64,000 bases of DNA from Arthrobacter sp. Edens01. Lineage in GTDB: Bacteria > Actinomycetota > Actinomycetes > Actinomycetales > Micrococcaceae. The DNA is taken from the NCBI RefSeq assembly GCF_001307035.1, contig NZ_LKIU01000002.1, positions 479,088 through 543,087 on the forward strand, read 5' to 3'. Every line of letters starts with the position of its first letter. Positions within the stretch are counted from its first letter, which is position 1. Of this stretch, positions 47,632-60,645 are shown piece after piece. The position numbers and the translations under genes were made by a program. The notes beneath the pieces were generated by a model, which saw only the letters and a list, made by a program, of their open reading frames with translations, did not search any database and was not told the DNA's origin.

Positions 47632-48717
47632 GTGGCTCTTACTATTGGCATCGTCGGCCTGCCCAACGTCGGCAAATCAACCCTGTTCAATGCGCTGACC
47701 CGCAACAACGTGCTGGCGGCGAACTATCCGTTCGCCACGATCGAGCCGAATGTCGGCGTCGTATCCCTTCCGGATCCGCGCCTGGCAAAGCTCGCCGAGA
47801 TCTTCGGTTCGGCCCGCATCCTGCCCGCAACCGTGTCCTTCGTGGACATTGCCGGCATTGTGAAGGGCGCGTCGGAGGGCGAAGGCCTGGGCAACCAGTT
47901 CCTCGCCAACATCCGCGAAGCCGAGGCTATTGCCCAGGTTATCCGCGTCTTCGACGACCCCGATGTGGTCCACGTGGACGGCAAGGTCGATCCGCGCTCG
48001 GACATGGAGACCATCAACACCGAACTGATCCTCGCGGACCTCCAGACCCTGGAGAAGGCCATTCCGCGCGTGGAGAAGGAAGTGAAGATCAAGAAGCGCG
48101 ACGCCGCGCAGCTGGCTGCCATGCAGGCCGCCCAGGCTGTGCTGGAGCGCGGGGATACGATCTTCTCCTCCATCGCCAGCGACAAGCTGGACATGGAGCA
48201 CCTGCGTGAACTGAGCCTGCTCACCGCCAAGCCCTTTATCTACGTCTTCAACGTTGATGACGCCGTCCTGGGCAACCCGGACCGCCAGGCTGAGCTGCGT
48301 GAACTCGTGGCTCCGGCCGATGCCATCTTCCTCGATGCCAAGCTCGAAGCCGACCTCGTGGAGCTGGACGAGGAAGAAGCCCGCGAGATGCTGGAGATGA
48401 GCGGCCAGGAGGAGTCCGGCCTGGACAAGCTGGCCCGCGTTGGCTTCCACACCCTGGGCCTGCAGACCTACCTCACTGCCGGTCCCAAGGAAACCCGTGC
48501 CTGGACCATCCGCAAGGGCGACACCGCGCCCCAGGCTGCCGGCGTCATCCACAGCGATTTCCAGCGCGGCTTCATCAAGGCCGAAGTTGTCTCCTTCGAC
48601 GACCTGGTCGAAGCCGGTTCCATGGCTGAGGCCAAGGCGCACGGCAAGGTCCGGATTGAAGGCAAGGACTACGTTATGGCCGACGGCGATGTGGTGGAGT
48701 TTAGGTTTAACGTTTAG
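47632..48717 (+). CDS. ychF: Redox-regulated ATPase YchF (Obg family)
   Basis: This 361-residue P-loop protein has G1 GIVGLPNVGKSTLFNAL, G3 FVDIAGIVKGASEGEGLG, and the NVDD motif YVFNVDDAVL in place of NKxD, as expected for the ATP-preferring YchF/OLA1 branch. The C-terminal TGS domain is intact (TWTIRKGDTAPQAAG, then MADGDVVEFRFNV). The last nine codons are also the core of a repeat found three more times downstream, so this gene end is the apparent insertion site of the island. Start is GTG 47632. Confidence 0.96.
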   Translation: MALTIGIVGLPNVGKSTLFNALTRNNVLAANYPFATIEPNVGVVSLPDPRLAKLAEIFGSARILPATVSFVDIAGIVKGASEGEGLGNQFLANIREAEAIAQVIRVFDDPDVVHVDGKVDPRSDMETINTELILADLQTLEKAIPRVEKEVKIKKRDAAQLAAMQAAQAVLERGDTIFSSIASDKLDMEHLRELSLLTAKPFIYVFNVDDAVLGNPDRQAELRELVAPADAIFLDAKLEADLVELDEEEAREMLEMSGQEESGLDKLARVGFHTLGLQTYLTAGPKETRAWTIRKGDTAPQAAGVIHSDFQRGFIKAEVVSFDDLVEAGSMAEAKAHGKVRIEGKDYVMADGDVVEFRFNV

Positions 48718-48720
48718 TTC
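48691..48720 (+). repeat. ychF-end repeat copy 1 (attachment-site-like)
   Basis: This copy is the functional ychF end and codes for VVEFRFNV-stop (GTGGTGGAGTTTAGGTTT and onward). Copies 2-4 at 52591, 53757 and 59732 match it except for synonymous changes. Unlike them it is preceded by ychF sequence (GACGGCGAT), so the crossover is probably at or after its GTGGTGGA. Confidence 0.85.
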
Positions 48721-48740
48721 CTGATCAGTGGGACTCGTGA

Positions 48741-48772
48741 GGGCCGCTGAGAACACGTGTTCTCAGCGGCCC
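48741..48772 (+). terminator. Hairpin after repeat copy 1
   Basis: GGGCCGCTGAGAACA pairs with TGTTCTCAGCGGCCC around a two-base centre. It serves as the ychF terminator now and is closely similar to the hairpin after copy 4. Confidence 0.75.
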
Positions 48773-48805
48773 CATTGCTTCCTTGCTCATTGTCGAGTTG
48801 AACCG

Positions 48806-49045
48806 ATGAAGCAGACCATGGCGGAGTTGTTCTCCTAGAATGTTGATGATCGTCCGCGCGAGCCGCGCCGACAGCAGTGGCCGGACTCGCATGGGCCACC
48901 AGGCGCGCACTTGAGGACTCCGGACCTCGGGAGGATCCCCGCTGCCAGAACCTGTTATGGACTGCGATTCCATGGTGCGGGATAGCCCAAGACAATCTCG
49001 ACCTCTAAGAACTTCCACCCCCGACACCTTGAGAAGGACTTCCAG
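48806..49045 (+). pseudogene. Decayed fragment of the gene found intact at 59845
   Basis: The first ten codons read MKQTMAELFS, as in the intact gene, but a TAG follows at 48836. Nucleotide likeness to the intact gene continues with gaps and frame changes, for example CTTGAGGACTCC, CCTCGGGAGGATCCCCG and TATGGACTGCGATTCC, and fades near 49045. It is a 5' part only, left behind or brought in when the island formed. The end point is approximate. Confidence 0.75.
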
Positions 49046-49192
49046 CCAAGTGTGACGCGTTTCGTATTGCCTCCTCATTTAGGGGTAGAAACCATAATTC
49101 TCAATGGCAACTTTTTCTTCGACAGGTCGACCGGTGTCATCCGCGACGACACTGTGGCACAGGCCTATTCAAGGATGCTAAGCGTCATGTGC

Positions 49193-50617
49193 CTAAGGGT
49201 GTTGACGCCCACCATTGTCGGCGGGGCCCTCGGCAGGGATGAACTCTTCAAATTTCACTAGGGTGGGCAAACTAGTGGGCGCGAGCGCCCGCTGAACGAC
49301 GGCGTCGGGTCCGCGGAATTCGTGGACCGCCACGAACATCTCTTCCCACACATGGAAGTGGTACTCAGCTCGCGCCTCGCCCTCCCACCCGAAGCTGGCG
49401 ATCACTTCGAATCCTCGGCGGTCTCGGTCGGTTTCATCGGGAACAATCGTCAACCCTGCATTCGCCAAGAGTTTTTCCATCCAGCCCGAGTTGTAAGTCG
49501 CTGCGATGACAAGTCGGTTGCGCAAAATGTCGCGGACGGCTCGCTGAGGGACCTCCCACAAGTAGAACGGCAGCACTCTGGAACTGTAAGTGTCTTGGTC
49601 GTTATCCGGGATCATTGACAGAGTAATACTGTTTCGATCACCTATTTCTTCGTGCAGCAGGCCTCTGACATCGTGGTTCAGCGAGGTCGATAGGATATCT
49701 TCTGAAGAGACCCCGTCGCTGTTGTAGATGAGGGAGTATCCGACAAAGCCTCCGAGTTCAAAGTACGCATTTCCGTCACGTCTGGCCTGCCTAATCGCGC
49801 GTCGCAGTTCTTTCCAGTGGGGCTTCTGTTCTTCCGGAAGTGAGATCGGGAAGACGTGCTGGTTTCCGATTTTGGTGGACTTGTGGAGTGGGGCATTCTT
49901 GCTCGCAGTCGCAATTTCCATCCGCGCGAGCTGCCGCTCAATGCGACGATCAGCGCGTCGCCGACGGGTGGTATTCGGCGTATGGTCCGGGTTGCTGTGT
50001 GGAGGATCCGTGACGTAGGAAGGAAACGGTTCTGTGCTGATCGCAGTGATGCCTAAAGTGACGGTGGTCTTTCCTCCCTCGATTTCGCGTTCGTCTAGCC
50101 GTGAAGTTTTGAGTTCAATCGTTCGGTAGTCTGCTTCAGCGGCCAGGCCTGTCGGCCGCATAAAGGTAAGATCGCCGATGCGAAGCACATTGGTAATGTC
50201 GTGCACTATGGGAATTCCCCACTCGGAACTCGTCATCGAGCGGGCGAATTGGAAGGCACCGCGGTGCCCTTCTGACCACGATGAAGGGACTGGCACAGGA
50301 TCATTTTCGGCAAGCGCATATATGACCTGCCGGTTCAATAGCAGTGCCTGCCACGCAATAGCGTCTCCTAAGCGTCGAGACTGCCAACGGACCCAACGTA
50401 ACTTGTTTAGGTAGTCTAGGACCTCCGCGTTTTTTGGCCCTCTTCTTTTGGCCTCCGCGATTGCGGTCTGAACCTCGACTTGGAGTTCGAACAACTGCTC
50501 CTGCAAATCGAGATAGGCGTCCAGGCCCTCATCGAACAGCTTTCCTCCGCTGACCCGTTGGGCCCTTTTCTCCAACTTCACGAGAATCCCGAGAAGAACT
50601 TTCTCGTCTCCGCTCAT
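49193..50617 (-). CDS. Unknown protein with possible PD-(D/E)XK nuclease core, element 1
   Basis: The 474-residue protein has a helical N-terminal 100 residues (LDLQEQLFELQVEVQTAIAE), then LRIGDLTFMRPTG and DYRTIELKTSRLDE. Asp149 and the pair Glu168/Lys170 in GD-x18-E-x-K spacing resemble the PD-(D/E)XK nuclease active site, but the match is loose. A basic stretch TRRRRADRRIERQLARME follows near 215-235, and the C-terminal half has no familiar motif. It is soluble. The ATG at 50617 has a weak GAGA site. It is divergent from the PIN-domain gene by 528 bases; the two may act together as a defence or toxin pair, but I cannot show that. Confidence 0.6.
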   Translation of the reverse strand: MSGDEKVLLGILVKLEKRAQRVSGGKLFDEGLDAYLDLQEQLFELQVEVQTAIAEAKRRGPKNAEVLDYLNKLRWVRWQSRRLGDAIAWQALLLNRQVIYALAENDPVPVPSSWSEGHRGAFQFARSMTSSEWGIPIVHDITNVLRIGDLTFMRPTGLAAEADYRTIELKTSRLDEREIEGGKTTVTLGITAISTEPFPSYVTDPPHSNPDHTPNTTRRRRADRRIERQLARMEIATASKNAPLHKSTKIGNQHVFPISLPEEQKPHWKELRRAIRQARRDGNAYFELGGFVGYSLIYNSDGVSSEDILSTSLNHDVRGLLHEEIGDRNSITLSMIPDNDQDTYSSRVLPFYLWEVPQRAVRDILRNRLVIAATYNSGWMEKLLANAGLTIVPDETDRDRRGFEVIASFGWEGEARAEYHFHVWEEMFVAVHEFRGPDAVVQRALAPTSLPTLVKFEEFIPAEGPADNGGRQHP

Positions 50618-51145
50618 GACTGCTTATCTCTCATGACCGAATGGTACTGGACAGGCGGACTCTACCCGGCGGCGACGGCTGCTCGTGGAGTGCCGGCCAT
50701 GGCGACGGCGCCGCTATGATTGCACAGACATACTCAGAGGTTCTCTCGTTACTGACTTCCGCACTCATTACAGGTTCGAGTTAGTTTCCGTAGGGCCCAT
50801 CGGCGGCCACGGAATGTGGTGCAGCGTTAGGTGGTGTTCAACCTCTAGCATTCTCGACGAGCGGACATCGTTGTGCTTTCGAGTGAGCCACCGAAATTGT
50901 GAAGTGACGCCGGTGCCAAGCTCCTGGTCTTCCATCCCGTCCTCGGTCATGTCGGTTAGGCGGTACACGTCTGCGACGTGAAGTGGTGGGGGTGGATGCC
51001 TGCCCCCTTGTTTGCAGCTGCATCGTGTTAGTCGAACCGCCGTGTGCGGGAGAGTGAAGCTATTGCGTACTCGGGTCGCTCAATTGCACTCGGCTCGCCG
51101 GGCGAGTGACCCTCTGTTGTTGGAGATGTTTGTTACGGTCTGCAC
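50618..51145. other. 528-base divergent intergenic region in element 1
   Basis: It holds the promoters of two divergent genes. A minus-strand frame at 50768-50968 (MYRLTDMTEDGMEDQELG and onward, 66 codons) reads like protein and may be a remnant of an older gene, but it has no ribosome binding site or recognisable family. Nothing else was identified. Confidence 0.4.
51134..51139 (+). promoter_or_regulatory. -10 box of a leaderless promoter for the PIN-domain gene
   Basis: TACGGT lies six bases before the ATG at 51146. Confidence 0.45.
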
Positions 51146-52417
51146 ATGGGGAAAAGCTTGTGGGACGGTCACCAATATCGAGCGAGCGAGCAGAGGGCTG
51201 ACCTTCTAAACGCCCTTGATGAGGCACTGGTTGTGGTCGACACCAATGTCCTGCTCGATTTGTACCGATACGTTTCCTCGCCACGCGAGGCGCTCCTTGA
51301 CGCGCTGCGTTCGCTGGGTGACCGTATTTTCATTCCATATCAGGTCAGCGTCGAATTCTGGCGCGGTCGTGAAGGCGCCCTGAATGATTCGGCGATCCGA
51401 AGGCCGAAGGCCCTTGAAGACTTGAGTGCAGCTCAAGACTCGGCGGTGCAGGTGTTTAACGAATGGGCAAACCGAGTTGCTCTCGACGAAGGAACCCGGC
51501 GGGATGCGCATGGTGCACTCGCAAAGGCGTTTGAGCAAGTCACCAAGACGATTGAAGGGTTAGTCGGTCCTGAGCGTGCGATGCGGGTGGTGGATACGAA
51601 CAGCGACTCGATCCTTGGGGAGATCATCGATCTTTGCGACGGCAAAGTTGGCCTCCCCCCAGAACTCCCAGTGATTGAAACGCGAACAAAAGAAGGCATG
51701 AGGCGGGCGGCCGCAGGTGAACCTCCCGGATACAAGGACAAGAAGAAGGAACCTGCTCGAGTAGTCGGAGACTACTTGCTGTGGTGCGAGGCGATCGACA
51801 CAGCGGCTGAACGCGGAGCTGATCTCGTTCTAGTCACCCGCGATACGAAGGAAGACTGGTGGAAGATCGTTGGCGGTGAACCTGTTGGCCCGCGGGTTGA
51901 GCTTCTCGAAGAGTTTTGGGTTAAAAGTGCGGGCAAACGCGCGTACTTCTTGAGGCCCTCACAGTTCGTCTCAATGGTTGCTGAGAAGGCCGGACAACCG
52001 ACATCGGAGACCGTCGGCCAGCTGGCCCGCGCTGAGCGCTCACAAACTGGAGGGGCATGGAACTTTGCAACGGCATCCGAGTTGATTTCGGCTCTTCGTG
52101 AGTGGTATCCACCCCAGTACGAAGCTATGAAGTACGCCGCTCTGCACTCTGGTCGTATACCTAGGGAAAAAATCTACGAGCTAAGCGGCTACCAGAATGA
52201 CCGCACCCTGCGGGGGTTCGGGCGGCCCGTAAACCGTTTAGCCCGTAGCATCTACGACCCTACTGACGCCATGGAAGACTTTCCCCCTGTTTTCGATTCC
52301 TACTATGACCCAGCCGTTTCGTGGGTCCAGGCAGCAGGCTTCGAAGTGGACGGGGACCTAGCGTCGGCAATGCGAGCAGTGCTCTCGCCCGCAGACAATC
52401 CGGCTAAAGACGATTAG
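51146..52417 (+). CDS. PIN-like domain protein (PIN_8/DUF4935 type), element 1
   Basis: The N-terminal 260 residues of this 423-residue protein form a PIN-type ribonuclease domain. EALVVVDTNVLLDLYRY carries the first catalytic Asp, IPYQVSVEFWRGRE the conserved Glu, and VVGDYLLWCEAIDTA plus LVLVTRDTKEDWW the remaining acidic residues. Such PIN_8 proteins occur in defence-type gene clusters and are presumed to cut RNA. The last 150 residues include WNFATASELISALREWYPPQ and a helical tail of unknown role. No small antitoxin gene lies next to it. The start is leaderless. Confidence 0.75.
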   Translation: MGKSLWDGHQYRASEQRADLLNALDEALVVVDTNVLLDLYRYVSSPREALLDALRSLGDRIFIPYQVSVEFWRGREGALNDSAIRRPKALEDLSAAQDSAVQVFNEWANRVALDEGTRRDAHGALAKAFEQVTKTIEGLVGPERAMRVVDTNSDSILGEIIDLCDGKVGLPPELPVIETRTKEGMRRAAAGEPPGYKDKKKEPARVVGDYLLWCEAIDTAAERGADLVLVTRDTKEDWWKIVGGEPVGPRVELLEEFWVKSAGKRAYFLRPSQFVSMVAEKAGQPTSETVGQLARAERSQTGGAWNFATASELISALREWYPPQYEAMKYAALHSGRIPREKIYELSGYQNDRTLRGFGRPVNRLARSIYDPTDAMEDFPPVFDSYYDPAVSWVQAAGFEVDGDLASAMRAVLSPADNPAKDD

Positions 52418-52590
52418 GGCGAGTCCGGGAGAGGGACGCAGTCGAGAGGATCGTTTCGCTCTTTAACCTCAACGTAGAGCAACCTAGAAAGCGGTCTGTA
52501 AAACCTGATATCTGTGTACTTCTCCGCCCAGCCAGCGCACGGTGGCTGTATAGCCACCCTTCCGTACAATAGGTTATTCGGCTACGGAAC
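52418..52590. other. Right end of element 1
   Basis: This AT-richer, gene-free stretch contains the short inverted repeat GGTGGCTGTATAGCCACC (52545-52562). It ends in TAGGTTATTCGGCTACGGAAC, which is shared with the right ends of elements 2 and 3. It may hold recombinase binding sites. Confidence 0.4.
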
Positions 52591-52617
52591 GTGGTGGAGT
52601 TTAGATTTAATGTATAA
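52591..52617 (+). repeat. ychF-end repeat copy 2
   Basis: The copy again codes for VVEFRFNV-stop, but uses AGA, AAT, GTA and TAA in place of AGG, AAC, GTT and TAG. All four differences from copy 1 are silent. It is preceded by GGCTACGGAAC. Confidence 0.8.
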
Positions 52618-52636
52618 AATCTTCGCCTGAATCAAT

Positions 52637-52679
52637 AGAAATGCCGCCCTCCCTGAAAACGTATGAGGGCGGCATTTCT
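52637..52679 (+). terminator. Hairpin after repeat copy 2
   Basis: AGAAATGCCGCCCT pairs perfectly with AGGGCGGCATTTCT around a 15-base loop, followed by TG and TTT. It belongs to the same sequence class as the hairpin after copy 3 and differs from those after copies 1 and 4. Confidence 0.75.
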
Positions 52680-52924
52680 TGTTTACGGATCGAGCGTTGT
52701 ATCGTCACCAGCCTTCGTGGAGCTCGTGCGGCACCGCCACCGGTCCTTTGAAGAGGAATAGCCAACACGGGTCACGACTAGTTCGCCTTCGGGGGCCCCG
52801 ATCCCAGTGGACATTTCCGATCGGGACCTCTAGCTTTGAGCGAACCATTTACTGAAGGCAGGTCGAATGCGATGCTCGGAACCAACGACTGTTCTCCGTC
52901 CGGCCGACAAATGAAGGAGTCACT

Positions 52925-53536
52925 ATGTGGGGAATAGGGCTTAAACGGCGGGCTGTTTGGCCAAAGGAAATGACCATCCGGATTGATGACCACGCGCAGA
53001 ACCTGAAGATGCTTCTCTTCATCCGACAGGCATGGATGATCGCCCAGGACATCGCAATTCCGGAACTCAGCCCTGTGCCTGCGACGGGTGCATCGAAGAT
53101 CCCGGCGTCAGCAAGCCGTGAGGTATGGGATGAACGCTGGAAGCAGCAATGGGACCGCAGCTGGGACTGGTTCAACGTAAGCACAGTTCAAAACGAACCG
53201 ATCTCACAGGAAGAGATGCAAAAACTCTCGAGCCCTGGTCAGGTACTCCACCCGATTGTGCCACCGTTCTGGCCCGTCGAATACGGCGAGGACGGGGTAG
53301 ATCTGGTGGCCTTCAATACGTGGGATAAAGAGACAACGCCGAACTTTCCTTCCCGGTCCGAACAAGATAGCCTTCCGGCGCTGGTTAAGGCATGGCAAGA
53401 CGGGCTCACGACGATCGTCGTACTGCCCTATTTGGGGTACTTTGCGCAGCGTCTAAACGGCAGTCATCTTGCCATCTCAGCTGAAACCAGGAACGACCCG
53501 AAACTCTACACTGCGGCACTCCAAACAAGTCGCTGA
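52925..53536 (+). CDS. Unknown tryptophan-rich protein, element 2
   Basis: This 203-residue soluble protein has no recognised family. A tryptophan- and charge-rich region, EVWDERWKQQWDRSWDWFNV, lies near 65-85, and PIVPPFWPVEYGEDGVDLVA follows later. Gene 59845 also ends in a domain containing LNTW, whereas this protein has FNTW, but the likeness is slight. The ATG at 52925 has a clear AAGGAG six bases upstream. It is the only gene in element 2, so whatever the element does must rest on this product or on the DNA itself. Confidence 0.6.
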   Translation: MWGIGLKRRAVWPKEMTIRIDDHAQNLKMLLFIRQAWMIAQDIAIPELSPVPATGASKIPASASREVWDERWKQQWDRSWDWFNVSTVQNEPISQEEMQKLSSPGQVLHPIVPPFWPVEYGEDGVDLVAFNTWDKETTPNFPSRSEQDSLPALVKAWQDGLTTIVVLPYLGYFAQRLNGSHLAISAETRNDPKLYTAALQTSR

Positions 53537-53756
53537 TACCAAGAAGCGCCCAGATGGCAAAGGACGGCGGCGCCGTTGGCAGGGGCCGGTGCCCCGCGCC
53601 GGCGGCAGGACCTCCGGCGCGGGAGCGGGGTTCCGTCAGCGGCCCATGCTGCCGCCGCCGGGGGCATTCCTCAGATCAACCGGGACGTAGCGCTCGGCTT
53701 CCCCTACCTCGAAGGTAATCTGACTGCGAATGTTAGGGGTTGTTTGGCTACGGAAC
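53537..53756. other. GC-rich right end of element 2
   Basis: No gene was identified. It holds a very GC-rich stretch (about 53565-53690) unlike the AT-richer cargo on either side, and ends in TTTGGCTACGGAAC before the next repeat. Confidence 0.4.
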
Positions 53757-53783
53757 GTGGTGGAATTTAGGTTTAACGTTTAG
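53757..53783 (+). repeat. ychF-end repeat copy 3
   Basis: Codes for VVEFRFNV-stop with GAA instead of GAG for Glu, otherwise the same as copy 1. It is preceded by GGCTACGGAAC. Confidence 0.82.
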
Positions 53784-53805
53784 TCTCTTTGACCGAATGC
53801 ATTAG

Positions 53806-53843
53806 AAATGCCGCCTTCTGCAAAGCGTAGGGGGTGGCATTTT
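53806..53843 (+). terminator. Hairpin after repeat copy 3
   Basis: AAATGCCGCC pairs with GGTGGCATTT with one G-T pair and is followed by TTTTGC. It is the second member of the hairpin class seen after copy 2. Confidence 0.7.
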
Positions 53844-54083
53844 TGCATAATGATGTGGGGATCGCATCAAACAAACGGTGCGGGCGCGTATTTATGAATC
53901 GTCAGAGTAGTGCAATCCGATCAGGAGGTGATCTTTCCGGATCGTCAGTCAAGGCACGCCCTGTAGCTGCGCGCTCAGATTCGGCCACGACCATTCGTAG
54001 ATTTTTGGGAATGCGCGTGGCGCATACGAGCGGTAAGCAAACTAGGTATAAACTCGCAGGATGCATGAAACATTGGTGCCTCG
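53844..54083. other. Gene-free start of element 3
   Basis: No convincing gene. TATAAA at 54047-54052 is a possible -10 element for the gene at 54084, about 30 bases away, with no clear -35. Confidence 0.3.
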
Positions 54084-55013
54084 GTGAGGGCCTTTTTCGG
54101 TAAGTTCTCAAAAGTTGACTGGATATCGTTTGCTTCCTGTGCGACTCTCTTTGCTCTGACTCTGATCCCGGTGTTCTTTGATGTCAATACGACTGGCGGG
54201 TGGTTGCGCACAGCCCTTATCTCGTTTGTAGCTCTTATAATCTCAACTGTCGTGCTCGCCCAGATTGGTGCGCGCGAGTCTGACAAGGAACTGGCACGGA
54301 ACGTGGAGACACTTCAGTCTCTCGTTGAGAGTGCGGTGGACCAGAATGCGGTTCATGAGATTCCAGCGGGTCACATACGTCGCGTTCTCGATGAGATGCT
54401 TGGTTCCTCAAAGGAGTGGTACTTTCGCGGCGGCTCCGCACGATGGCAACGAGAACATGTCCTTCCGGCTCTCGCGCGAGTGACGGACAGGCCAGTCCAA
54501 TATAAGGTGCAAGTGATCTCACCGTTTGATAGTGAGTTGTGTGCCAAGTATGCAGCGTACAGGCGTAAAAGTCGCCCAGATGATGAGCGCGCAGATCCGC
54601 AGAGGATCCAGATGGAACTCCTAGCCTTTATATATGGGGCGGTCGTTTGGACCTCGCGATCAAAAATTGTGTCGCACATCACTCTGCTTCATAGATTCTC
54701 ACCATTCCGTTTAGACGGGAATTCAGAAAGCATCGTTATCACTGTTGCCGATCCCCACCGCAACGGCCTTCGCACTAGGGTGGGAAACTGGTACCACGCG
54801 GCGCTCCTGGATGAGTTCGAGTTTGAAGCGGGCTATGCGACGCCTTTGATATTGCCAGCGGAAGCATCAGATGCTGAGGGCATCCCAGACGTAAAGCGAT
54901 TCTTCATGCGGGTTCGAGAGTTGAACCAGGAAGCTACGGCGAATTGGAACGAGGATTACACGGATGAAGAATGGGGAAAGATCTTTGAGTTCGCTGGGAC
55001 GACCAATGCTTAG
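54084..55013 (+). CDS. Two-helix membrane protein with cytosolic C-terminal domain, element 3
   Basis: The 309-residue protein has two membrane helices at about 14-33 (ISFASCATLFALTLIPVFF) and 43-61. A cytosolic part follows with EWYFRGGSARWQREHVLPAL near 110-130 and VTDRPVQYKVQVISPFDSEL. I do not recognise the family with certainty. Membrane helices in front of a ligand-sensing or nuclease-like domain are common in membrane-disrupting defence effectors, so it may be the effector of this element; that is inference. The GTG start at 54084 lacks a good ribosome binding site. The stop overlaps the next gene by eight bases. Confidence 0.65.
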   Translation: MRAFFGKFSKVDWISFASCATLFALTLIPVFFDVNTTGGWLRTALISFVALIISTVVLAQIGARESDKELARNVETLQSLVESAVDQNAVHEIPAGHIRRVLDEMLGSSKEWYFRGGSARWQREHVLPALARVTDRPVQYKVQVISPFDSELCAKYAAYRRKSRPDDERADPQRIQMELLAFIYGAVVWTSRSKIVSHITLLHRFSPFRLDGNSESIVITVADPHRNGLRTRVGNWYHAALLDEFEFEAGYATPLILPAEASDAEGIPDVKRFFMRVRELNQEATANWNEDYTDEEWGKIFEFAGTTNA

Positions 55014-55680
55014 TATGCGCGATATTTATGAATCCTATGTGGCTAACGAATTCACAAACATCTCAATTAGCAGTGTTTTTAGAGCAATGATTTTGGAAGC
55101 AGACAGAGTGGATGTATGGAAGCATCCACTTGGATTCAACCATGCAGAACTGACACCTCTCGTGGATGCGCCTGCTGGCGAACGGTTTCGGCTGCACTTT
55201 TGGTTGGATGATCGCGGAGTCGTCGATGAACTCGGTGACCTTCATGAACACACCTGGGATCTCACTAGTCTCGTGCTAGCGGGTTGCGTTGTTGATTCGA
55301 ATCTCGCTGCCTCATCTTCGAGGGGAGGCGAATACTTAGGGTCAAGGATCACTTATGGTGCAAAGAATATAGCCGAGGAAGTGGGAAGGTTCGATCTGAA
55401 GGTTACGAACGTGCGTACAATCCGGATGGGATCGGCTTATCAGATTCCAAGCCGAACAGTTCACCTGAATGAAGTCGGCACTATCCCTACAGTGACGCTC
55501 GTACGCTCAGTGGAAGATGGCCGGGGAGACGGCCCTTTGGTACTGACGAAGTACGCTAAAGGTCAAGGCCTCGCTACAGAAATGCGAGCCAAGTTGCCGG
55601 CATCGGAAGCGCTTGATCGATTGGCAAAGGCATTATTGGAATCCGAACCGGCCGTGGCTCTGTCGCCGTGTGAACGCTAG
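55006..55680 (+). CDS. Cupin-like protein, element 3
   Basis: The 224-residue protein has a probable metal-binding beta barrel: RLHFWLDDRGVVDELGDLHE, then HTWDLTSLVLAGCVVDS, giving an HEHTWD motif. YQIPSRTVHLNE is in the place of the second His strand. The layout resembles cysteine-dioxygenase-like or other cupins; the reaction is unknown. The gene starts inside the end of the membrane protein gene (ATG 55006, or 55015), which indicates translational coupling, so the two products probably work together. Confidence 0.65.
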   Translation: MLSMRDIYESYVANEFTNISISSVFRAMILEADRVDVWKHPLGFNHAELTPLVDAPAGERFRLHFWLDDRGVVDELGDLHEHTWDLTSLVLAGCVVDSNLAASSSRGGEYLGSRITYGAKNIAEEVGRFDLKVTNVRTIRMGSAYQIPSRTVHLNEVGTIPTVTLVRSVEDGRGDGPLVLTKYAKGQGLATEMRAKLPASEALDRLAKALLESEPAVALSPCER

Positions 55681-55964
55681 GGGAGACGGGACTGTCGCAC
55701 TATAGCGCTCGTTGACGACCCGGAACAGTCAGCTTGGGGCAGTGCACTTACTGTCACACAGTCATGAATGTCGGTCCGGACCATTTGTCCTACGCGAACC
55801 CCAACAATAGTGGGGCTGGCGGATCAGGGTTCCAAAGACCGTGAACCTTGGTCGGGAAGCCCCAACATTGAGTTCAGCTACGTACCTGTCGACTCATGCA
55901 CGCGTGAATCAGGCATCCCTCCGGCCCAGGGCGGATAGACACTGCCAGTGCTCAGCTGACTAGT
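55681..55964. other. Intergenic region before the large element 3 gene
   Basis: 284 bases with no gene seen. The inverted pattern GTGCACTTACTGTCACAC near 55741 is too weak to call. If the large gene starts at 56106, the gap is 425 bases. Confidence 0.3.
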
Positions 55965-58900
55965 GTGGTGAAACCTATGCTCCCCACTAGAGTGGGCAAG
56001 GAGTGCACCATTCGGATTGGCTTTTTCGAGCTGGTGGAGCGATGCGCAAAAAGTTCGCGCCTTTCTCTGACCAGTCCCAGTCCGCGACCCGAGCAGCACA
56101 AGCCCATGAAGACTATGCGGCAGTATGAGGGGAAGGCAGAGTTGAGCAAGGCCGACGAATTCGTCTGTTCGCAGCGTGCCATCGCCGAATGGCTCGAGGA
56201 GCAGAGGCCCGAGCTTGGGCATACCTACCGGGGGGCGCGGGAACTGTTAAACGCGACACCTGATCCAGGCCAGGAAAGAACTCGAGTTCTTCTGATCTGC
56301 CACTCCATGAGGGAAGTGATAAATCGGTTGCCTACCGCAGTGATGCTGGGGCGAGGAAGCATCTACCATAGTGCCGAAGCGAACCACAAGACGTCATCCG
56401 AATTGGTGCGCGGCCTTCCTAGTTTCCGCGTCGACTACCCGGAAATGGATTTGTCGCTTGAAGTCGAAAACGTGCCAGTTCCGCACGGCGTGGCGGTCGC
56501 TCTCAACCGACTGATAGATGCTGCGGTGCACGAAAACCAGAGGCGCTTGAGCGATATTGCGACGTTTCTGACCGATGATGCCAATCCCAAGCATCCTGCG
56601 GTGCGTGATTGGCGCGGCTTGAGTGAGTACTTTACGAGATGGGCTCACCTAAGCGACAAACCAGAGCAATCCATTCCTACGGACCAGCAGCTAGCCGCCA
56701 AGATCCGTATCTTCGAGGAACATGTTGACGCGATTCGTCTCGCCTTCTTCGAAAGCAAGAGCGTTGTTGAGGGCCTGCTTGCAGCAGCGAACGCCCTCAT
56801 TGAGGAGGGTCAGTACAGTGTTCCGGCGAGGATTGACGTCGAGGCCGCTGCTCGAAGGCTCACCAGCTATCAGCTACGCAGGCTCTTCTATGAGGGTTTG
56901 AAGAATCCGCACTGGGTAAAGCCCCTTGCCGACTTGGGTGTCTTTATTGACCCCCCGGAGCCGGAGCCCGTAGGGGATGGCAACATCCGCGACGTGTTCT
57001 GGCCGGAGGTCAGCTACCTGACTAACGTGTGTACGGAGGTTCCTGGCGATGTCGTTGACATATTGCTCAGCCTAGAGGCGTCGTCCAACTCTTGGGTTCG
57101 GCGAGCCGCTTTCGTGATTGGCTCCCAAGTGCCAGCTGTAGAAGCGGTACGCCTGAAACCGTTGCTCAAAGTTTGGGCGAAGTCGGGCGGATTTGGATGG
57201 CGAACAGATCCGCGCGATATGGTCGCGTTCGCAATCAATCTGCTGACGGGAGGGCAGACGAAGTATGGAGTGTCATTCGCGAACCTACTCTTCAGGCCCC
57301 GGGAAACGCCTGGGGACGGCCGCAATTCGGTAGTCGAACTCGAGAACTATTGGTATGTAGAAGAGATGCCCCGTCTCCTGGAGGCTCTAGGAGATACCGC
57401 ACTGAAGACTGTTCTCCCTTGGCTCGTCGAGAACGAACGGATCAAAAAGACGGTCACGGACGACTTTGACCACAGCGGCTTCGCACGTTCTTCAGTTGGG
57501 CAGCAGCTCAACGAGCGACACGACATTGGGGATACGCTCATTGATGCGGTGCGGGCGTGCGCCATCACTGGTTTCGGCAGCGACGCGGCCTCTACGTGGT
57601 CCCTGTTTAGCCGTAAGCCCATCCTTATCACCGAACGCATCGCCATGCACTCTCTCGCCCAAGTTCTCGGTTCACTGAGTGATTCAGAGGCGCCCCTGCT
57701 CGTAGAGATCGGTAAAGAGTTGCTATGCCGGCCTAAGTGCCGAGATGAAGGTGCACTGTTAGAGTTCGTGGCCCTTGCGCGCGCCCTCGCGCAGCGATGC
57801 GAACGAGAGGCGCTTGAGCGTATCGTCGCACAAGGACACTTCACGGACGAAGACCGCGACCGTATTCGCAGGAACATGGCAGCAAGCGGAGAACCCTTAA
57901 ACGAAATCGAATCCTCCATAGAACGCTGGGAGGATCACTGGCAGCACCGAGTGCTGAGCGGAATCGGACGCGAACTGTTATCCGATGGCCTCGTCTCCGA
58001 ACTGGACCGGCTAGAAACAATGCACGGAGTTTTGGAGGACCCGCTCCGCCCTTCGTTCCAACTGACTTCATGGGAAGGGCCCAATAGTCCAGTCGAGCAA
58101 GCAGAGATGGCGGCGATGAGCCCTTCCGAACTAGTGGCCCAGCTTGAGAGTTGGCATATGACTGACGAGCGGTTTGGGCCGAGTCCGTCTCACGAAGGTC
58201 AATCGCGTGTGCTCGTCGCCGTCCTGACCGCCAACCCGCGTGCTTTGGGCGAGGTTACAGGTTTGGTCAGAAGGCTAAGGCCCACGTATATCCGAGCTGC
58301 GTTCTCGGGGTGGGAAGCGGCGTTTAAGGCCGGCTTGGACTTGGACTGGGTCGTTGTTATCGACGCCCTGGCTGATGCTGTCAAGCACGGCAGAGAGTCA
58401 TCTTTTCCGGCTGAAGGCCGTCAATACGATGACGATGCAGACTTCACCTCCGCGAAGAAAGCCGCCGTTGGACTCCTCGAAGAGCTCTCTAAGCCGAAGA
58501 ATGCAGAAACTATTGGCTCGGAATGGCTGGTACCCGTCGCGGACCTGATCGTTGAAGTATCCGGCGATGAGGCAGCTTGGACTGACTATGCGCGATCTGA
58601 TGCGTCGTCCTCAGCAATGGACCCCTTGACTGTTTCACTCAACTGGCAATGGCCTATTCTCATCCGTGCACTCGTGAATCTGGTCGCACACGGATCGGAA
58701 GCCCAATGGCATGAGGTGGCTGAGTCAGTTCTTCGCAGGGAACTCGCCCGCGATGATCCCCGAGGTGCCTCTCACGCTGTGCTGGGCGAAGGCCTAGGTC
58801 GACTGCATGACGGTGCCTCCGAATGGCTGAGAGAAAATCTAGCTTTGTACTTCGGATCGGCAGGCGTACTAACACGGCACCAGCAGATCGCGTTGACGAC

Positions 58901-59639
58901 AGCGATTGCCATGTACCACTACCACCCAGCTTTGTACCGCCTTCTGAGCGGATCGATGATTGCCGCCCTGCAGGAGCACGACATAGCGGTTGGATGGGGA
59001 GACCCTGGAAACCCAAAGGGGCGCATCGGGCAGTGGGTGGTGCAGGCAATCATCCGTGGGCATATCTCTGATGACGACGAGTTGCGTCAGGCGTTCTATC
59101 AAATTGCAGCACCCGAAGTACGAGGCGATGCGATCGGCCACATCGCCTGGAGCTTCATGCACGCCGATGTCGTTGATGCATCGATCCGAGACCGCCTCGG
59201 TAGCCTATGGGACGAACGCGTGCGGCACGTTGAATTTCACCCAGCACACAATGCAGAGCTCAAGGACTTCTATTGGTTTGTCCGGTGCGGCAAGTTCAGT
59301 GCTAGTTGGTGGCTACCACGCTTGACGCAGGCCGTCCAACGCTATCCCGAGCTTAGTACACATGGAATGATCGGTGGACAGCTCGCGAAGGCTGCATCGA
59401 CTATGCCTGCTGACGCGCTTGCTGCGCTGACTGCGCTCCTGAAGCCTGAAGACACCGAAAGTCTCAATAACTGGGATCTTCGGCGTGAAGCTTTGGCCCC
59501 AGTGATCGCGTCGGCGCTGGAATCCGGGGACCCGCAGCTGGGGCAGGAAGCCATGGACCTTATGAATGCTATGGGCGCCCGGGGGGAGATAGACCTCGAT
59601 CGCCGTGTTGCAGAACTTAGGGAGAAGCCCGGAGGGTAG
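55965..59639 (+). CDS. Large helical-repeat protein of unknown function, element 3
   Basis: The product is up to 1,224 residues, soluble and almost wholly helical. From about residue 350 to the end it reads like a solenoid of HEAT-type repeats, for example NSWVRRAAFVIGSQVPAVEA, EVRGDAIGHIAWSFMHADVV and WLPRLTQAVQRYPELSTHG. Such solenoids are typical of the sensor half of STAND/Avs-type defence proteins, but no P-loop or nuclease motif is seen in this one. It may be a scaffold or sensor for the two genes before it. The start is unsure: GTG 55965 is the first, while ATG 56106 (MKTMRQYEGKAELSKADEF) fits the start of protein-like sequence better. Confidence 0.65.
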   Translation: MVKPMLPTRVGKECTIRIGFFELVERCAKSSRLSLTSPSPRPEQHKPMKTMRQYEGKAELSKADEFVCSQRAIAEWLEEQRPELGHTYRGARELLNATPDPGQERTRVLLICHSMREVINRLPTAVMLGRGSIYHSAEANHKTSSELVRGLPSFRVDYPEMDLSLEVENVPVPHGVAVALNRLIDAAVHENQRRLSDIATFLTDDANPKHPAVRDWRGLSEYFTRWAHLSDKPEQSIPTDQQLAAKIRIFEEHVDAIRLAFFESKSVVEGLLAAANALIEEGQYSVPARIDVEAAARRLTSYQLRRLFYEGLKNPHWVKPLADLGVFIDPPEPEPVGDGNIRDVFWPEVSYLTNVCTEVPGDVVDILLSLEASSNSWVRRAAFVIGSQVPAVEAVRLKPLLKVWAKSGGFGWRTDPRDMVAFAINLLTGGQTKYGVSFANLLFRPRETPGDGRNSVVELENYWYVEEMPRLLEALGDTALKTVLPWLVENERIKKTVTDDFDHSGFARSSVGQQLNERHDIGDTLIDAVRACAITGFGSDAASTWSLFSRKPILITERIAMHSLAQVLGSLSDSEAPLLVEIGKELLCRPKCRDEGALLEFVALARALAQRCEREALERIVAQGHFTDEDRDRIRRNMAASGEPLNEIESSIERWEDHWQHRVLSGIGRELLSDGLVSELDRLETMHGVLEDPLRPSFQLTSWEGPNSPVEQAEMAAMSPSELVAQLESWHMTDERFGPSPSHEGQSRVLVAVLTANPRALGEVTGLVRRLRPTYIRAAFSGWEAAFKAGLDLDWVVVIDALADAVKHGRESSFPAEGRQYDDDADFTSAKKAAVGLLEELSKPKNAETIGSEWLVPVADLIVEVSGDEAAWTDYARSDASSSAMDPLTVSLNWQWPILIRALVNLVAHGSEAQWHEVAESVLRRELARDDPRGASHAVLGEGLGRLHDGASEWLRENLALYFGSAGVLTRHQQIALTTAIAMYHYHPALYRLLSGSMIAALQEHDIAVGWGDPGNPKGRIGQWVVQAIIRGHISDDDELRQAFYQIAAPEVRGDAIGHIAWSFMHADVVDASIRDRLGSLWDERVRHVEFHPAHNAELKDFYWFVRCGKFSASWWLPRLTQAVQRYPELSTHGMIGGQLAKAASTMPADALAALTALLKPEDTESLNNWDLRREALAPVIASALESGDPQLGQEAMDLMNAMGARGEIDLDRRVAELREKPGG

Positions 59640-59731
59640 GGGAACGCGGGAAGTATTAGCCGACACAATGGCAGAGGAATTACAGGATGCCGTCTCGCAT
59701 GATTTGCATAGAGATTATTCGGTTACGGAAC

Positions 59732-59761
59732 GTGGTGGAGTTTAGGTTTAACGTCTAGTTC
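59732..59761 (+). repeat. ychF-end repeat copy 4 (right boundary of the island)
   Basis: Codes for VVEFRFNV-stop with GTC instead of GTT for the last Val. It is preceded by ATTCGGTTACGGAAC, as in copies 2 and 3. It is followed by TTCCTGAT, the same bases as after copy 1. Confidence 0.83.
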
Positions 59762-59778
59762 CTGATGAACAGACTCGG

Positions 59779-59816
59779 AAGGGGTCGCTGAGAACAAATG
59801 TTCTCAGCGACCCCTT
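59779..59816 (+). terminator. Hairpin after repeat copy 4
   Basis: AAGGGGTCGCTGAGAACA pairs with TGTTCTCAGCGACCCCTT. It is nearly the same as the hairpin after copy 1 and is probably the original ychF terminator of this chromosome. Confidence 0.75.
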
Positions 59817-59832
59817 CCTGCATGTCCCTTGA

Positions 59833-59844: not shown

Positions 59845-60645
59845 ATGAAGCAAACGATGGCCGAGTTGTTCTCGAAAGACGACGAGTACGCGTACATCAT
59901 GCTGGTATGGGCAAGCCGTGCGGAAACACCGGAAGAAGTCGCGGGACGAGCATGGGCAACGATGTGCGCTCTCGAGGATTCCGTGCCTCGGGATGATCCC
60001 CGATACCAGGACCCGTCATGGACTGGGATTCCTTGGAGTGCCACACCCGAAGAGAATCCCGAGCTCTATGATCTTCCCGCACCCGGAAGCCTGCTAGAGC
60101 TTGAAACCGAGATGCGGCATCGGGCCGAGGTTGGGTCGGACGGCACTCTGACGGCTGGCCTGCCCATTGGTGCTGACCTGACCTGTGCCAGGTCCAACGG
60201 CGCCAGTATGGCCTCATATTCAGGGAATGTAGGTTCGGGCGTGGCCTCACTGGAAAACACAGTAACCATTCGTTTTGCACCGCTGTTTCCGACAGGGGAC
60301 AAGAGGGATCTAACGGCCCTTTTCCGTCGGATCGTTAGCATCTGGCAGCCGGACTGGGCTCTCCTGGATACGCTCCAGACGAGCAGGGAAGTCCAGGGAG
60401 CACAGGAATCGTACGCCGACTATCTGATCTGGCTTTCAGAAGCTGAGTCCGGTCCCGCCCCTGCACTGCAGGCTGCGACTACTGGACCTTTCGGGGACGG
60501 GACCCTGATCACGCTGAACACCTGGAGCATTGACGGAGTCCGGGCCCTGCATCAGGAGCTGCTGAGCGCTGGGATCCCTCCAGTGAACATCAGGCGGCCT
60601 CTGGACCTGCAAATAGTGCCCCAGTTTCCTGCCGTGGACCTTTAA
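59845..60645 (+). CDS. Unknown protein, possible Imm52-type immunity protein
   Basis: The 266-residue soluble protein has no sure family. MLVWASRAETPEEVAGRAWA opens it, IRFAPLFPTGDKRD and SIWQPDWALLDTLQTSREV come later, and YADYLIWLSEA is near residue 190. The short beta strands and the WQPDW/WLS pattern recall polymorphic-toxin immunity proteins of the Imm52 kind, which is a guess. It is the gene that follows ychF without the island. A decayed copy of its start lies at 48806. No matching toxin gene is close. Confidence 0.6.
   Translation: MKQTMAELFSKDDEYAYIMLVWASRAETPEEVAGRAWATMCALEDSVPRDDPRYQDPSWTGIPWSATPEENPELYDLPAPGSLLELETEMRHRAEVGSDGTLTAGLPIGADLTCARSNGASMASYSGNVGSGVASLENTVTIRFAPLFPTGDKRDLTALFRRIVSIWQPDWALLDTLQTSREVQGAQESYADYLIWLSEAESGPAPALQAATTGPFGDGTLITLNTWSIDGVRALHQELLSAGIPPVNIRRPLDLQIVPQFPAVDL

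Follow-up and report, generated by a model that had tools for sequence, protein, structure and literature searches.

Why is the end of a single conserved gene, ychF, repeated four times in tandem in Arthrobacter sp. Edens01, and what is the DNA between the repeats? The locus lies in a 64,000-nt stretch of contig NZ_LKIU01000002.1 (the window), where a first-pass annotation had described an array of integrase-less elements, seemingly inserted one after another at the same gene end by a recombinase acting in trans. Comparison with related genomes leads us to a more specific answer, to which we give a probability of about 0.8: the array is most likely a row of tandem cassettes that lack a large serine recombinase (LSR) and were made by LSR site-specific recombination at the ychF 3' end.

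A direct-repeat search of the window returned four copies in the same orientation at 48668, 52568, 53734 and 59709, spaced 3900, 1166 and 5975 bp apart, which places the cores at 48691, 52591, 53757 and 59732. These are the four repeats, and the three segments of about 3.9, 1.2 and 6.0 kb, of the first-pass annotation. The repeat unit consists of the terminal ychF codons, present once as the gene end itself and again at 52591, 53757 and 59732. An arm, GGYTACGGAAC, precedes the core in the three downstream copies and is missing from native ychF; upstream of the core, segments 1, 2 and 3 end in GGCTACGGAAC, GGCTACGGAAC and GGTTACGGAAC, respectively, so the shared right end reported earlier holds. 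With up to three mismatches, the arm-plus-core pattern TACGGAACGTGGTGGARTTYMG has three matches in the 3.64-Mb genome, all at the right ends of the array, and its reversed control has none under the same conditions. The segments are also AT-richer, as had been claimed, with a G+C content of 0.57, 0.57 and 0.56 against 0.64 at the ychF end. With B and B' denoting the half-sites of the ychF end and P the arm of the segments, the array reads as follows.

47632..48717, + strand: ychF GTPase, the target gene, whose last codons form the attachment site (Pfam YchF-GTPase_C 2.3e-39, MMR_HSR1 5.2e-22)
48684..48717, + strand: site 1, the ychF end, intact attB-type (B.B'), core GTGGTGGA at 48691-48698
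48691..52590, + strand: cassette 1, 3900 bp, with two genes; its left end contains a hairpin and a divergent duplicate of the distal flank
48741..48773, + strand: hairpin at the cassette 1 left end, 88% like the hairpin beyond the last repeat
52567..52617, + strand: site 2, attR-type (P.B'), P arm 52567-52590, core 52591-52598
52591..53756, + strand: cassette 2, 1166 bp, found edge to edge in seven other species as well
52637..52680, + strand: terminator-like hairpin GAAATGCCGCCCTC..GAGGGCGGCATTTC, frequent at cassette left ends
53733..53783, + strand: site 3, attR-type (P.B'), core 53757-53764
53757..59731, + strand: cassette 3, 5975 bp
53804..53844, + strand: terminator-like hairpin at the cassette 3 left end
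59708..59758, + strand: site 4, attR-type (P.B'), core 59732-59739, end of the array
59777..59818, + strand: hairpin of the distal flank

The copied flank at 48717-49016 is a diverged version of the DNA beyond the last repeat (69% identity over 323 nt) and includes the start of a 266-aa gene that follows the array. We also observed that many cassette left ends, such as window positions 52599-52680, recode the ychF end as TTTAGRTTTAATGTATAG in place of the host-like TTCCGCTTCAACGTCTAG, with the peptide unchanged, and that a terminator-like hairpin is common to many of these left ends.

The same arrangement recurs throughout the genus. All 29 genus genomes have ychF, and 24 of them contain the arm-plus-core pattern at up to three mismatches (control 0); in 20 of these the match is behind ychF and shares its strand. 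The idea of a feature peculiar to the window strain is rejected on that count. We compared the ychF 3' flanks of the 28 other genus genomes by a position-weight scan with a score cut, leaving G011 out of the tally. Behind ychF, 20 of the 28 tallied genomes carry between one and four segments each, 40 in all, one of which is an LSR element in G002. The remaining 8 of 28 have no segment above the score cut; a three-mismatch match about 1 kb behind ychF in G006 and a weak match 3.5 kb behind it in G014 both count as none at that cut. In G013 and G006, ychF is directly followed by a terminator resembling that which comes after the last repeat in G004, G009, G016 and G017, and in G026 it runs directly into the first 131 nt of the window's distal flank at 87% identity. 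Insertion is therefore precise at the gene end. Segment-free, one-segment and several-segment genomes, the contrast by which the first-pass annotation proposed to check its reading, thus all exist.

Beyond the genus, a family scan at up to two mismatches found the pattern in 96 of 395 genomes and 15 of 32 genera; the reversed control gave a single match in each of 11 family genomes, which means that part of the 96 is due to chance, and position relative to ychF is known for the fetched genomes only. An exact 40-base IUPAC pattern of the right end occurs in 22 named stretches, from Kocuria, Nesterenkonia, Brevibacterium, Arthrobacter, Brachybacterium, Demequina, Acidipropionibacterium and Gulosibacter. 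Five of these stretches also hold ychF (L159, L160, L161, L176, L179), each time with the P site downstream on the same strand. Among 13 genomes searched, ychF and the P site share a contig in seven, again with the P site downstream on the same strand, and lie on separate contigs in six; G327, G035 and G172 have the same order. Sixteen family genomes were added to the flank comparison, 14 picked for pattern matches and two (G172 and G220) for their LSR, and are for that reason uninformative on frequency; G234, a fifteenth pattern genome, was excluded because its stretch lacks ychF. Altogether 82 segments were listed, with a median of 1.86 kb, 67 of them between 0.6 and 6 kb and three with an LSR inside (G002, G172 and G220).

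A candidate enzyme family is found at ychF in relatives. In G002 and G011, ychF ends in VVEFRHGITSA-QGKK instead of VVEFRFNV, and an LSR gene with Resolvase and Recombinase domains stands behind ychF in each (PF00239 1.1e-27 and 8.2e-29; PF07508 6.8e-14 and 2.2e-13, respectively). Pfam Recombinase occurs in 8 of 29 genus genomes, and at ychF only in these two, which are also the two with a ychF end of the type B.P', where P' is a half-site brought by the LSR element. No PF07508 match was found at ychF elsewhere in the genus, a search in which tyrosine recombinases were not sought; hence none of the 39 genus segments other than the G002 element carries one. G002-like LSRs occur in 20 of 395 family genomes at E 1e-70 and in 7 of 396 order-level genomes at E 1e-100, four matches from outside the family being left out of the site comparisons. 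Nineteen of the 20 family genomes were fetched (all except G228); ychF is in the same stretch in 13 and absent from the stretch in six; outside these 13, the ychF of Kocuria soli lies 11.5 kb upstream of the LSR. In all 13 stretches holding both, the LSR is downstream of ychF, at 0.07-14.4 kb, and 12 of the 13 LSR-linked ychF genes end in the alternative half-site (B.P'). The B.P' end is found in none of 41 comparison genomes without such an LSR (27 genus, 14 family), all of which have a VVEFRF-type end. These serine recombinases answer to the recombinase that the first-pass annotation had proposed to seek in a longer element with the same ends. Insertion by a tyrosine recombinase or a Tn7-like element was set aside, since LSR half-sites explain both ends; no separate search for tyrosine recombinases or transposases was made.

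Close inspection of the LSR elements revealed how their ends relate to the cassettes. Read directly, their junctions are B.core.P' on the left and P.core.B' on the right. P matches P' as an inverted repeat at 22 of 24 positions in G002, 17 of 24 in G172 and 15 of 24 in G220, where 0 of 5000 random 24-mers do as well; in G172 and G220 we set the right end at the first P site past the LSR. In three of four tested elements, then, the ends form an imperfect inverted repeat around a short core, as an attP does, and in these three the left arm of that repeat matches the cassette right ends. The reverse complement of the cassette P-arm consensus was compared with P' over 24 positions at each of the 13 LSR-linked ychF ends. 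Seven ends agree with it at 19-21 positions, and the remaining six at 17, 16, 14, 13, 12 and 6; the first six compared positions (GTTCCG) are present in host-type ychF ends too. The centre of symmetry is GT at core positions 4-5; positions 1, 4 and 5 are each constant in 81 of 82 sites, and, from how LSRs work, GT is the probable crossover dinucleotide. All 27 genus genomes that have no LSR at ychF, among which 19 carry segments, show B.B', the attB type, as their left site. Site types, polarity and the association with an LSR at ychF thus come out of the comparison itself and, with the inverted-repeat match, mark the cassettes as units without an LSR, flanked by attB (ychF) to the left and by attR to the right.

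The P arm can also be followed to the LSR gene. Brevibacterium casei CIP 102111 has an intact LSR whose start is 38 nt from the core and 14 nt past a cassette-type P arm. At the same place Acidipropionibacterium jensenii, A. thoenii, Kocuria soli and Brevibacterium sp. 68QC2CO have the beginning of the LSR gene, about 62 codons long, and other DNA comes after it. Degenerate P arms near the LSR start were seen by eye in G172, G220, G123 and G214. Behind the LSR, a cassette-type P site was recognised in 3 of 13 genomes (G002, G172 and G220), and the right end of the G011 element was located by a ychF-like tail, VVEFRFDV, 37.3 kb on. Both LSR elements examined for it encode a relaxase (PF03432; 3.9e-12 in G002 and 6.5e-10 in G172, NikA-like in the latter), and in G172 the LSR element is followed by six cassettes.

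Two further features of LSR elements were observed. By eye, G133, G246 and G305 (L132, L131 and L133) have a P'-like half-site right before the LSR start and several kilobases away from the ychF attL, the picture one would expect had cargo been put in between that attL and the LSR. The G002 element encodes a 993-aa protein (L062:5735-8713, + strand) that, judged by eye from its motifs, resembles a B-family DNA polymerase. It has no Pfam match, and a pipolin-like reading of the element was dropped.

As comparison of its copies shows, at least one cassette has spread horizontally. The 1166-bp cassette (1165-1168 bp) is present edge to edge in eight species, in first position behind ychF in seven and in second position in the window strain, with right-hand neighbours that differ among the eight. 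In 26 of 28 species pairs its copies resemble each other more closely than the ychF genes do, and in 9 of the 10 pairs, out of 28, for which ispH could be computed, more closely than the ispH genes. Between the window strain and the other seven, identity is 94.9-96.9% for the cassette, 89.8-90.5% for ychF and 83.0-83.5% for ispH (four pairs). At both edges the sequence switches to that of the neighbour at the core: on the left, the P arm of the window strain and the ychF of the other seven diverge up to the core, and on the right the P arm is common to all and the sequence past the core differs. With the genomes holding zero, one or several segments and the LSRs with matching ends, this cassette supports the earlier claim of repeated insertion, apparently by a recombinase that is absent from the array.

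A second shared piece links more distant hosts. A P-end module of about 3 kb, 91-99% identical in nucleotide sequence, is common to the four genomes with a truncated LSR (L165, L169, L170 and L175). They belong to Brevibacterium, Acidipropionibacterium and Kocuria, the LSR gene being cut at the same place in each. The module encodes a protein of the MCRA family (Pfam 3.3e-209) and a TetR regulator; no site can be recognised at its left edge, which suggests that the module is the terminal portion of larger elements. LSR remnants are known from the loci of these three genera only: the last 1.8 kb of the 82 segments yielded none at E 1e-3 in a search that found both of two positive controls. Together with the copied flank at 48717-49016, the truncated LSR genes suggest that the first cassettes may have arisen through deletions within LSR elements and capture of ychF flank DNA.

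Several observations weigh against LSR-made cassettes. In G332 (L141) the LSR lies 0.1 kb behind ychF, yet the ychF end is an intact B.B'; the G220 LSR match spans residues 1-250 only; and the ends of the G011 element agree at just 9 of 24 positions as an inverted repeat, with 678 of 5000 random 24-mers as good. In the fetched stretches, no cassette-type P site reaches the cut in ten of the 13 LSR genomes, which implies diverged or more distant right ends for most of these LSRs. The pattern also matches away from ychF in four of the 24 pattern-positive genus genomes (G018, G023, G024 and G026), and some matches beyond the genus likewise lie apart from ychF or on a different contig. For two other shared cassettes, identity is below that of ychF (92.0 against 96.1 and 90.1 against 97.0). 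The window genome itself lacks a G002-type LSR at E 1e-70, a different LSR lying elsewhere (C2:151594). No such LSR was found at E 1e-60 in 72,556 plasmid and 50,697 phage records, from which records of near relatives may have been left out, and IMG/VR holds no exact match to the P half or to the attP-like pattern; a phage or plasmid vehicle was set aside on these two results. Finally, no excised circle was seen.

The array can nevertheless be derived by steps that are all standard LSR reactions. The attB would be the ychF end (B.GTGGTGGA.B') and the attP of the LSR would be P.GTGGTGGA.P', with P and P' as inverted repeats; each cassette would carry an attB-type site on its left and an attR-type site (P.B') on its right. 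The carrier would be an LSR element with a relaxase, that is, an integrative mobilizable element, which inserts at the ychF attB ahead of the cassettes, a state that G172 seems to display. Its attL could then recombine with any downstream attR. Recombination with the nearest would release the carrier alone and restore an intact attB ahead of the cassettes (B.B'-cassette-P.B'), and recombination with a farther one would release carrier and cassettes on one circle, to be delivered to the next host. The window strain would represent the state after the carrier has departed, and arrays are predicted to grow at the ychF side. Mobility, excision, transfer and the choice of attR are here what we infer.

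A wider reading, possible in our view but somewhat doubtful, extends this scheme to an integron-like cassette system widespread among Actinomycetes and run by ordinary serine-integrase reactions only. A relaxase-bearing LSR shuttle would pick up and drop accessory and defence cassettes, with growth at the ychF side; because cassettes rebuild attB ahead of themselves, ychF would be a permanently open landing site.

Could the segments instead be a graveyard, remnants of separate LSR elements that each lost the LSR gene by deletion and have been immobile since? The LSR remnants of about 62 codons at the P ends of four genomes, the two shared cassettes that are no more alike than the backbone, and the scarcity of G002-like LSRs (20 of 395 family genomes) all fit such independent decay. 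We consider it unlikely, since one 1166-bp unit recurs edge to edge in eight species with varied right neighbours, closer than ychF in 26 of the 28 pairs, and Brevibacterium, Acidipropionibacterium and Kocuria have in common, at 91-99% identity, a P-end module with an identically truncated LSR. The absence of LSR remnants at E 1e-3 from the last 1.8 kb of the 82 segments, in a search whose positive controls were found, points the same way, as does the left site: decay of an element should have left B.P' there, and cassettes have B.B'.

Ordinary homologous recombination, anchored in the conserved ychF and the repeated ends and needing no recombinase, strikes us as more improbable still. Seven of the eight copies of the 1166-bp cassette adjoin ychF and so might have been transferred with it, and several cassettes share one end only, but the window copy stands second, away from ychF, and is 95-97% identical to the other seven where ychF is 90%. 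Moreover, the left divergence falls at the core, the P arm on the right is common while the sequence past the core is different, and the P arm with its match to LSR elements would be left unexplained. Local tandem duplication of chromosomal DNA, with the repeats as by-products, has in its favour the diverged distal-flank copy at 48717-49016. It is rejected: the segment-free genomes (8 of 28) and G026, where ychF directly precedes the window's post-array flank (131 nt at 87%), contradict it, and the three segments encode different proteins. LSR-made cassettes remain our preferred reading, and it is in their terms that we describe the cargo.

Six open reading frames make up the cargo of the window array, followed by the 266-aa gene outside it.

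49193..50617, - strand: 474-aa protein, present only in the window genome among the 29 genus ychF stretches
51146..52417, + strand: 423-aa PIN_8 protein, putative nuclease (Pfam PIN_8 1.7e-52; phrog_9788, unknown function, 1.6e-45)
52925..53536, + strand: 203-aa protein of a nameless family with matches in 21 of 295 family genomes, its own included
54084..55013, + strand: 309-aa protein, N-terminus hydrophobic by eye, with an 83% homologue in the one-cassette array of G004
54964..55680, + strand: 238-aa partner of the 309-aa protein, its 82% homologue adjoining the 309-aa homologue in G004
55965..59639, + strand: 1224-aa protein with a weak PADLOC Dsr1 match (E 1.5e-4, residues 698-995)
59845..60645, + strand: 266-aa gene outside the array, weak PADLOC PDC-M17B match (5.6e-5), either resident flank or an older cassette

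A Pfam scan of the six cargo frames found no integrase domain and no transfer domain, in agreement with the integrase-less array first described. The cargo is unfamiliar, again as described: the PIN domains are the only Pfam match in the six, and the PIN protein is the sole match to PHROGs. Neither the 474-aa nor the 203-aa protein has a match in Pfam, PADLOC, NCBIfam or PHROG, and the 1224-aa protein has none in Pfam or PHROG and none in a PDB search at E 0.01. The predicted structure of the 203-aa protein is confident (mean pLDDT 86.1), with mixed helix and strand. Homologues of the 309/238-aa pair (83% and 82% identity) make up a whole 2.1-kb cassette in G004.

We then surveyed cargo in relatives with 121 proteins of at least 130 aa, one per cluster (121 of 250 clusters), from segments under 12 kb, some of which may be resident chromosomal genes. 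Among the family matches listed (the first 25 of 207 and of 107), GmrSD_N and the SspE model occur three times each, the HEC-05, HEC-06, Orf5 and mREase_IV models twice each, and a KAP NTPase, a kinase and many metabolic families once each. With matches so mixed, defence is only part of the cargo. Cassette cargo appears to be accessory, with defence-type genes included in relatives. The earlier suggestion of defence genes fares accordingly: GmrSD, type IV restriction and other PADLOC matches, among those listed, support it for cassettes elsewhere, and the window itself offers only PIN_8 and the weak Dsr1 match.

Two gene families of the cassettes deserve separate mention. In the first segments of G007 and G008 (L067 and L068), a gene of about 195 aa is repeated in tandem, three times or more in each, with a repeat unit of about 0.7 kb; parts of this repeat also occur in cassettes of three further species (G009, G010 and G018). 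In the family of about 200 aa to which window 52925-53536 belongs (L192-L207), the G179 homologue lies on a different contig from the P site.

Taken together, the ychF arrays may allow bacteria to gather numerous small accessory genes at a fixed chromosomal position and yet retain no recombinase. Because that position is a conserved gene, it can be compared directly across genomes, and the 3' flanks of ychF are a ready place to seek new defence genes in actinobacteria. The LSR family and its deduced sites may also serve as a tool for genome integration.

How do these arrays compare with known systems? Integron cassette arrays likewise hold small, varied gene cassettes in order at one site, with growth expected at one end. 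Here, serine-recombinase half-sites would take the place of IntI and attC, and no resident integrase was seen beside the array. SCC and ECC elements use large serine recombinases (CcrAB) at rlmH, according to PMC6222049; the ychF system differs from what is described there in its target, its hosts and its mostly small, recombinase-less units. PMC5704250 describes CIMEs, elements that have lost their integration and transfer genes, keep their att sites and are mobilizable with an incoming element by accretion. CIMEs as described there retain attL and attR, whereas ychF cassettes pair an attB-type site at their left with attR at their right, which leaves ychF open to the next insertion.

The nearest known system is that of the Dehalococcoides ssrA islands (PMC3146451). 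There, as here, tandem units bounded by end repeats stand behind one gene end, some have a serine integrase (DsiB), and accretion is proposed; 15 of 31 islands lack the integration module, and a conserved motif lies beside the repeat. The target there is an RNA gene, ssrA, and much of the cargo is catabolic (reductive dehalogenases, with vcr islands of about 12 kb). Here, the target is the protein gene ychF, whose last codons are supplied anew at each insertion, 67 of 82 segments measure 0.6-6 kb, and the hosts span several actinobacterial genera and families. We found no description of ychF as such an insertion site in the literature searched, beyond which one may be in print; for ychF, the searches brought up at most two Streptococcus pneumoniae papers (PMC10383233, PMC8637289). 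Against the known accretion systems, what is new here is the ychF target, the hosts, the small units, and boundaries of attB and attR in place of attL and attR.

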